The notes under the pieces were generated by a model. That model saw only the letters and a program-made list of their open reading frames with translations, had not been told where the DNA came from and made no database searches. DNA of 64,000 nt from an uncultured Pseudomonadales bacterium (GTDB lineage Bacteria; Pseudomonadota; Gammaproteobacteria; Pseudomonadales; UBA7434), in contig CAJQKT010000018.1 in the NCBI GenBank assembly GCA_905478995.1, forward strand, positions 1-64,000, written 5' to 3'. The position numbers and the translations under genes were made by a program. This document shows positions 237 to 1,437 of the stretch, in pieces. Positions within the stretch are counted from its first letter, which is position 1; the number at the start of each line of letters is the position of its first letter.

Positions 237-636
237 AGGTGGGTGACTTCGCGATTACGTAACACTCCTCGAATTTTGGTAAGCGGTACACGAACGACAT
301 TCTATTCTGATCAAACCCATCCTGTCATAGTCTCGCTCGATCACCTATAGGGTTCAGTGGGTCCACAACAGGGTCGCAAGGTCTTAATGAGTGGGGCCAG
401 GTAAGGCTTTTCTTATACTCGACAGCTTTATTCAAGTGTTTTAATACGATGTAAGCTGTTAATTACAAGTCTAATTCTGGCAGGATAATCAAATATTAAC
501 TCGGTTATCATACTGTATTTCATGCATATTATACGTCTTAGACACTATACTTTGATCCACAAATTTTCTGCTTTGAGATAGGCTTATTACTTTTCTTACT
601 TATATTCTTGACTGGCTACGGAAGCTTTGGCCGACA
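237..636. other. 400 bp without a recognisable gene
   Basis: AT-rich, stop-dense in all frames and without a clear promoter, RNA or repeat. It separates the csp terminator from the permuted Rieske gene and is probably the left part of the accessory scar that runs to about 2035. Confidence 0.5.
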
Positions 637-1437
637 ATGTCGCTTAGCTTACCTCATGTTGCAAGTTACACTCGTGAGCTGCCAATAAGTCTTACCCGTA
701 TGTATGAAAACGCTATAGATGGAGAACATTTACCGTGGCTTCATAGGACCTCGTTTTCTCACTTAGAAATTATCGATAAAGGTAGTTGGGGTTGGCGAGC
801 CAAAGGTAATTTCGTACCTAAATCATTTATGAATAGTATGGAATTGGAATTGCGGTTAGATCGTGAGAAAAATTGTTGGATAACACGAACGACGGCTGGG
901 CTAGGCAAAGGGACTGAAATTTGGACTCATGCCTTTGAGCTCGAAGAAAATAAAATTAAGATTGTTGTCGACTTTTACATACCAAAACTGCCTAATTTCT
1001 TAAAAAATTTATACGCTGAAAAATTAGTACAGACTTACGCCCAATTATATGACGAAGATTTATGGATGATGGCAACTCGTCAAAATGAGTTGGATCGGAT
1101 TAAACTCGGTGAAAGTATCGAGCCGTTCGAATCAATTGAGTTGGGCTTGTTGGTTGAAATAGAGAAAGAATTACCCCTTACGTTTAGCTTTAATAATAAT
1201 CCTTATAAATTAGTGAAGCTTGATAAAAAGCTGCTGGCGTTTTCAGCTACTTGCCCGCATATGCTAGGCCCACTTCAAGACTGTGATATTGATCAAGGCA
1301 TTGTTGAATGTCCGTGGCATGGTTATAAGTTTGATGTGAAAAGTCGTAAGTGTATTAGTGGTGCTAGATGCAAACTTGCGCCAGCGCCGAGGATTACTAT
1401 CGACGACGAATCAGGAATAATTACAGCTTTAACATAG
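637..1437 (+). CDS. Rieske non-heme iron oxygenase-like protein with permuted domain order
   Basis: 266 aa. The N-terminal half carries the mononuclear-iron motif of Rieske oxygenase catalytic domains, N25-x2-D28-x2-H31-x4-H36 (in YENAIDGEHLPWLH), and an acidic third-ligand region EDLWMMATRQ with D141, the usual place for the carboxylate ligand. The C-terminal quarter is a Rieske [2Fe-2S] domain: C206-P-H208, 16 residues, C225-P-W-H228. In known oxygenase alpha subunits the Rieske domain comes first, so this order is reversed and the protein is short (families usually 340-450 aa). By family knowledge it would activate O2 at a substrate carbon using electrons from a ferredoxin or reductase; none is encoded nearby. 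The start at 637 lacks a good Shine-Dalgarno. The gene is clearly AT-richer than the genes right of 2036 and sits in a scar with att and integrase remnants, suggesting transfer. Substrate unknown. Confidence 0.75.
   Translation: MSLSLPHVASYTRELPISLTRMYENAIDGEHLPWLHRTSFSHLEIIDKGSWGWRAKGNFVPKSFMNSMELELRLDREKNCWITRTTAGLGKGTEIWTHAFELEENKIKIVVDFYIPKLPNFLKNLYAEKLVQTYAQLYDEDLWMMATRQNELDRIKLGESIEPFESIELGLLVEIEKELPLTFSFNNNPYKLVKLDKKLLAFSATCPHMLGPLQDCDIDQGIVECPWHGYKFDVKSRKCISGARCKLAPAPRITIDDESGIITALT

Follow-up and report, generated by a model that had tools for sequence, protein, structure and literature searches.

The stretch of DNA analysed here (the window, 64,000 nucleotides) carries a gene for a putative Rieske oxygenase (RO) in which the catalytic domain precedes the Rieske domain. 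The open reading frame extends on the forward strand from ATG 637 to the stop at 1437 and encodes 266 residues, and both the frame and every residue position named in a preliminary description of the locus turned out to be correct. Neighbouring genes in the window encode CspA (3′ part, 1-121), a NUDIX protein, an ABC1/UbiB-like kinase, an FMN oxidoreductase of the old yellow enzyme type, a TauD-type dioxygenase and an SDR. In agreement with the preliminary description, the setting is AT-rich (39% GC in the gene and 39-40% in its flanks, compared to 47% in the window), and no reductase is encoded near the gene in the window; many ROs are unlinked to their reductases. The following features were assigned:

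637..1437 (+), open reading frame of 266 aa, used for all residue numbers
586..1437 (+), most likely full coding sequence with an ATT start, 283 aa, based on collinearity with homologues
574..585 (+), TGAGATAGGCTT preceding the ATT, with an in-frame stop and a Shine-Dalgarno-like GAG/AGG, identical in the sister genome
586..636 (+), N-terminal extension ITFLTYILDWLRKLWPT, a probable amphipathic helix common to the core clade according to alignments
655..1110 (+), predicted SRPBCC/helix-grip catalytic domain, residues 7-158 (AlphaFold, Foldseek, hhalign, and Pfam in relatives)
709..744 (+), N25-x2-D28-x2-H31-x4-H36 with the two predicted iron His ligands and the candidate bridging D28, invariant in 22/22
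1051..1059 (+), D139-E140-D141, putative carboxylate ligand within the long third helix, D139 and D141 invariant in 22/22
1132..1434 (+), ferredoxin-type Rieske domain, residues 166-266 (PF00355 and ferredoxin HMM)
1252..1260 (+), C206-P-H208, first [2Fe-2S] ligand pair, invariant in 22/22
1309..1320 (+), C225-PW-H228, second [2Fe-2S] ligand pair, invariant in 22/22

Translation likely starts upstream of ATG 637, at ATT 586 (AUU), which would add 17 residues and result in a protein of 283 aa. The 17 codons 5′ of ATG 637 (ITFLTYILDWLRKLWPT) aligned gap-free with the N-termini of homologues, e.g., MTLLTYLIDWVRRLLPS, and these homologues possess an ATG at the exact codon where the window and a 92%-identical sister have ATT (586-588). 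The profile match of the window locus starts at 589 already, 5′ of ATG 637. An in-frame TGA occurs at 574-576, and between this stop and 637 there is no ATG, GTG or TTG codon. Within the 17 extension codons, window and sister differ by four synonymous changes and one non-synonymous change; the chance of at least four synonymous changes out of five is about 0.016 if approximately a quarter of the sites are taken as synonymous. The ATT at 586-588 is common to the sister genome (G007/L001), and it is the more distant homologues that have ATG at this codon. AUU start codons are rare, infC being the textbook case, and may hold expression low. The reading frame is open throughout, and comparison with the 92%-identical sister yielded a dN/dS of 0.17 for the gene as a whole, with values of 0.11 in its catalytic and 0.29 in its Rieske portion.

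A genome-collection search identified 13 full-length relatives with 38-92% identity in the best segment, which belong to the Gammaproteobacteria and the Bacteroidota (Saprospiraceae, Polaribacter), and more distant relatives were added by whole-genome searches. The catalytic motif came first and the Rieske domain last in every homologue found, as claimed earlier for the window protein. As this order is common to homologues across two phyla, it does not stem from a chimeric contig or an assembly artefact, an explanation against which the preliminary description had proposed to check. The ligand residues were invariant in 14 of 14 homologues and, once the set had been enlarged, in all 22, among which identity in alignments reaches down to about 33%. 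The residues conserved in every one of these 22 members are E24, N25, D28, H31, H36, D139, D141, C206, H208, C225 and H228, an invariance that is therefore far beyond chance.

AlphaFold2, run on the family alignment, predicted for the window protein (pLDDT 87.2, pTM 0.73) a strand, two helices, six strands and a 39-residue helix (120-158) bearing D141, followed by a Rieske fold, and the same picture was obtained for a diverged member (pLDDT 88.1, pTM 0.79). With Foldseek, the N-terminal half retrieved helix-grip folds, mostly generic Bet v 1/START proteins among the 50 matches listed. Thus, the expectation of an N-terminal SRPBCC/helix-grip fold and a C-terminal Rieske fold was borne out by the models. 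No canonical RO occurred among the 50 Foldseek matches listed, so that it is the profiles and the motif that link the catalytic domain to the ROs. Pfam returned no match for the N-terminal half of the window protein. In hhalign comparisons against canonical ROs from related genomes, of both the PF00848 and the VanA type, the N-terminal domain aligned with PF00848-type ROs over residues 16-154 (E=7e-5), which placed H31, H36 and D141 on the RO iron ligands, and with VanA-type ROs over 29 columns covering the motif region only (E=6e-5). Reversed sequences served as controls and gave E-values of 0.0055-0.97, about 80-fold or more weaker. In addition, the N-terminal half of relative L011 matched PF00848 (E=4e-5, residues 39-170), and that of relative L028 matched VanA_C in the motif region only (24.0 bits with a curated cut-off of 23.5). 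Models and profiles together indicate that the N-terminal half is a minimal RO-type SRPBCC/helix-grip domain.

D141 was aligned with the RO 'ED' ligand in the profile alignment, and D139 is equally invariant; by alignment, D141 rather than D139 is thus the putative carboxylate ligand. The spacing of D28-x2-H31-x4-H36 is the same as that of E205-H208-H213 in CntA (PMC7948474), and an acid accordingly lies three residues ahead of the first His ligand, D28 corresponding to CntA E205 by spacing. In CntA, the carboxylate of E205 forms the bridge between a Rieske cluster and the iron of the adjacent subunit, with an inter-subunit electron transfer distance of 12 Å (PMC7948474). As D28 is invariant although it is not expected to bind iron, its conservation suggests that the same Rieske-to-iron relay is kept. 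The preliminary description had considered the catalytic part smaller than usual, a view that the ligand span does not bear out: H36 and D141 are 105 residues apart, compared to 110 for H213 and D323 of CntA (PMC7948474). The domain is compact overall although this span is ordinary, and some relatives have insertions of about 25-40 residues between H36 and D141. Extra segments of this size occur at two different loops of the catalytic domain in L031 (8746-9717) and L029 (8361-9278) and possibly represent variation of the substrate pocket.

The C-terminal part was recognised by the Pfam Rieske model PF00355 at residues 174-242 (E=2.8e-11). For a closer assignment, 22 Rieske domains of the reversed family were compared with 30 RO domains and 33 short ferredoxin/NirD-type proteins. 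All 22 favoured the ferredoxin HMM, with 41-59 bits compared to 13-30 bits for the RO HMM (47.2 versus 19.5 bits for the window protein); the classifier was correct in 80 of 80 held-out tests, with a ferredoxin set that had been gathered mainly with one model. The best NCBIfam match of the Rieske part was AndAb, and the Foldseek matches of the diverged member included the soluble Rieske ferredoxin 3d89. The segment following CxxH is ferredoxin-like in the reversed family (F-D-x3-G-x-C-x-S-G), and the longer RO segment is missing. RO Rieske domains possess a characteristic insertion that contacts the neighbouring catalytic domain (PMC12445004), and in our reading it is this inter-subunit insertion that the family lacks.

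These findings bear on the view, taken in the preliminary description, that the protein is a permutant. A true permutation of a canonical RO alpha subunit, in which the same two domains would be swapped and the trimer geometry maintained via new linkers, could account for the presence of all ligands in both domains and for the retained bridging Asp. Also, in a sequence comparison of the Rieske part with the PDB, dicamba monooxygenase, an RO, ranked first (E=3e-4), with ferredoxins close behind. However, the ferredoxin-type Rieske domain in 22 of 22 members and the missing insertion after CxxH argue against such an origin, as does a FastTree phylogeny that separates the ROs from the reversed family and the ferredoxins with moderate support (0.85). 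We therefore regard permutation as unlikely and the term permutant as probably wrong. A fusion with, or replacement by, a ferredoxin-type Rieske domain fits the type of this domain and the missing insertion better than a shuffle and appears more likely, if not settled, than a permuted canonical alpha subunit.

Two further explanations are less probable still. The protein might be a lipid-binding or cyclase-like SRPBCC protein that acquired its metal motif by convergence, with a Rieske domain that stores electrons or acts as a sensor instead of supporting oxygenation. The Bet v 1/START proteins as nearest folds among the 50 Foldseek matches listed, a weak match of one member to Polyketide_cyc2 (E=0.025) and the lack of an adjacent reductase are in line with this idea. 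It is nevertheless a rather remote alternative: all 22 members retain the full NxxDxxHxxxxH plus D set, the ligands fall in register when profiles are aligned with RO catalytic domains, and relatives match RO Pfam models. Even more improbable is a degenerate or misassembled gene whose domain order would result from contig chimerism or from an insertion in decay. While the AT-rich surroundings (39-40% versus 47% GC), the poor conservation of the intergenic stretch downstream and the homologous start position without an ordinary start codon might give this impression, the same order is found in independent genomes of two phyla, dN/dS is 0.17, the frame is free of stops, and the order cspA-gene-NUDIX is kept in two sister genomes.

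The computational evidence shows the domain order and the folds, and that the two metal sites and the bridging carboxylate are fully conserved. The reading that we consider clearly the most probable is that of an RO-like enzyme of fusion origin, with a minimal SRPBCC domain of the RO catalytic kind at its N-terminus and a ferredoxin-type Rieske domain at its C-terminus; electrons would pass from the cluster to the iron for O2 activation. In such an enzyme, an external reductase would deliver electrons to the tail [2Fe-2S] cluster (C206/H208/C225/H228), from where they would reach the mononuclear iron, probably via D28 and probably between subunits. The iron bound by H31, H36 and D141 would then activate O2 and oxidise a substrate in the helix-grip pocket. 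In the AlphaFold model, D141 is located mid-way in helix 120-158, and a linker of only about 7 residues leads to the Rieske domain. The start of the latter is about 25 Å away from D141 along the helix (17 residues × 1.5 Å), and this distance mildly favours inter-subunit over intramolecular transfer in the model. All structurally characterised ROs are described as C3-symmetric and as using inter-subunit electron transfer, with about 12 Å between the cluster and the neighbouring iron (PMC12445004). More tentatively, and with slightly less in favour than against, the family might represent an independent second route to an RO: a lone catalytic domain would have acquired a Rieske ferredoxin as its C-terminal part, turning a formerly mobile carrier into a built-in one that feeds the iron via the conserved carboxylate, in a geometry (or by intramolecular transfer) unlike that of the C3 trimer.

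The family is rare and patchy. The gene was present in 4 of 369 genomes class-wide, the window's own included, in 10 of 392 genomes of the window's order and in 1 of 299 genomes of the order of the Saprospiraceae member, and most genomes of the window's own genus are without it. The patchy counts, the grouping of the Bacteroidota sequences with the gammaproteobacterial core clade, and the 39% GC of the gene in a window of 47% all point to a sparse spread by horizontal transfer, which would have followed the fusion of the Rieske part or its replacement with a ferredoxin-type domain. No full-length relative was found among 72,556 plasmid records, and viral contigs yielded pattern matches only and no confirmed relative. 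On the Thermus and Mycobacterium plasmids NC_017273.1 and NZ_CP012886.2, the Rieske part matched proteins annotated as NifU family, which suggests that ferredoxin-type Rieske domains occur in further fusions.

The order cspA-gene-NUDIX is common to both sister genomes, and none of the window neighbours is conserved around the distant relatives. Likewise, the gene neighbourhoods of the relatives revealed no conserved redox partner or pathway gene, synteny being confined to sub-clades, for instance to neighbours in common within one family. A search for an integration scar (tRNA/tmRNA, Rfam) gave no signal beyond the 3′ part of cspA, and the PADLOC defence library no match. Just 3′ of the gene, a perfect hexanucleotide array, (TGTTTC) x 7.5, is located at 1473-1517; the corresponding site of the sister genome (L026) lacks it, and it is therefore recent and possibly variable in length.

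Some neighbourhoods of relatives provide weak hints to the substrate. In L070 (7258-9005, minus strand), a gene of the PF04116 fatty acid hydroxylase superfamily and the reversed Rieske gene share an overlap (TGATG), and the two may form a functional pair. Another gene of the fatty acid hydroxylase superfamily is present in L030 on the opposite strand, and patatin-like lipases are encoded near the gene in Saprospiraceae members and L005. Directly upstream of the reversed gene, L029 (6028-9278) and L030 (1032-4243) encode a probable lipoprotein of 777 aa with a weak esterase-like stretch, and the two genes apparently constitute one operon. The hydroxylase and lipase neighbours and the probable amphipathic N-terminal helix are weak hints at a lipid-like substrate, which we regard as possible but rather doubtful.

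To our knowledge, every described RO has the Rieske domain first and the catalytic domain last. No published description of reversed, permuted or C-terminal-Rieske oxygenases was found in the open-access literature, which is weak evidence of absence; databases very probably list family members under generic 'Rieske domain-containing' names. Both parts belong to known kinds of domains, and the chemistry is expected to be that of ROs. Judged by its sequences, the family is a new architectural variant and not a canonical RO member, because it combines the reversed order with a ferredoxin-type Rieske domain that lacks the RO insertion. Such a natural reversed family tests whether the C3 inter-subunit geometry is essential or merely inherited, and it would bear on how ferredoxin and SRPBCC modules were first combined into ROs. 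With about 280 aa, the protein is also a compact scaffold on which ROs could be engineered.

Compared with known systems, the protein shares with the alpha subunits of CntA, VanA and dicamba monooxygenase (DdmC) the Rieske CxH/CxxH site and the predicted SRPBCC catalytic fold with a 2-His-1-carboxylate motif and a bridging acid. With CntA in particular, it has in common the arrangement of bridging acid-x2-H-x4-H and distal Asp at the same spacing (E205, H208, H213, D323; PMC7948474). Unlike in these proteins, the domain order is reversed, the catalytic domain is minimal, and the Rieske domain belongs to the ferredoxin type, the inter-subunit insertion of ROs being absent. With PF00848 Ring_hydroxyl_A or naphthalene-dioxygenase-type catalytic domains, profiles align over the whole domain and bring H31, H36 and D141 into register. 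In the naphthalene-dioxygenase-type motif, N and D are separated by three residues and the insertions are larger, whereas N-x2-D is found here, as in the VanA type. The overall N-terminal fold is like that of Bet v 1, START and Polyketide_cyc2 helix-grip proteins, which have neither a 2-His-1-carboxylate iron site nor a Rieske domain. Finally, the C-terminal 100 residues resemble Rieske-type ferredoxins such as CarAc, AndAb and the toluene dioxygenase ferredoxin, all from dioxygenase systems, and the mouse soluble Rieske ferredoxin 3d89; in contrast to these free carriers of about 100 aa, the ferredoxin-type domain does not stand alone here but is covalently joined to an iron-oxygenase domain in a protein of 266-283 aa.
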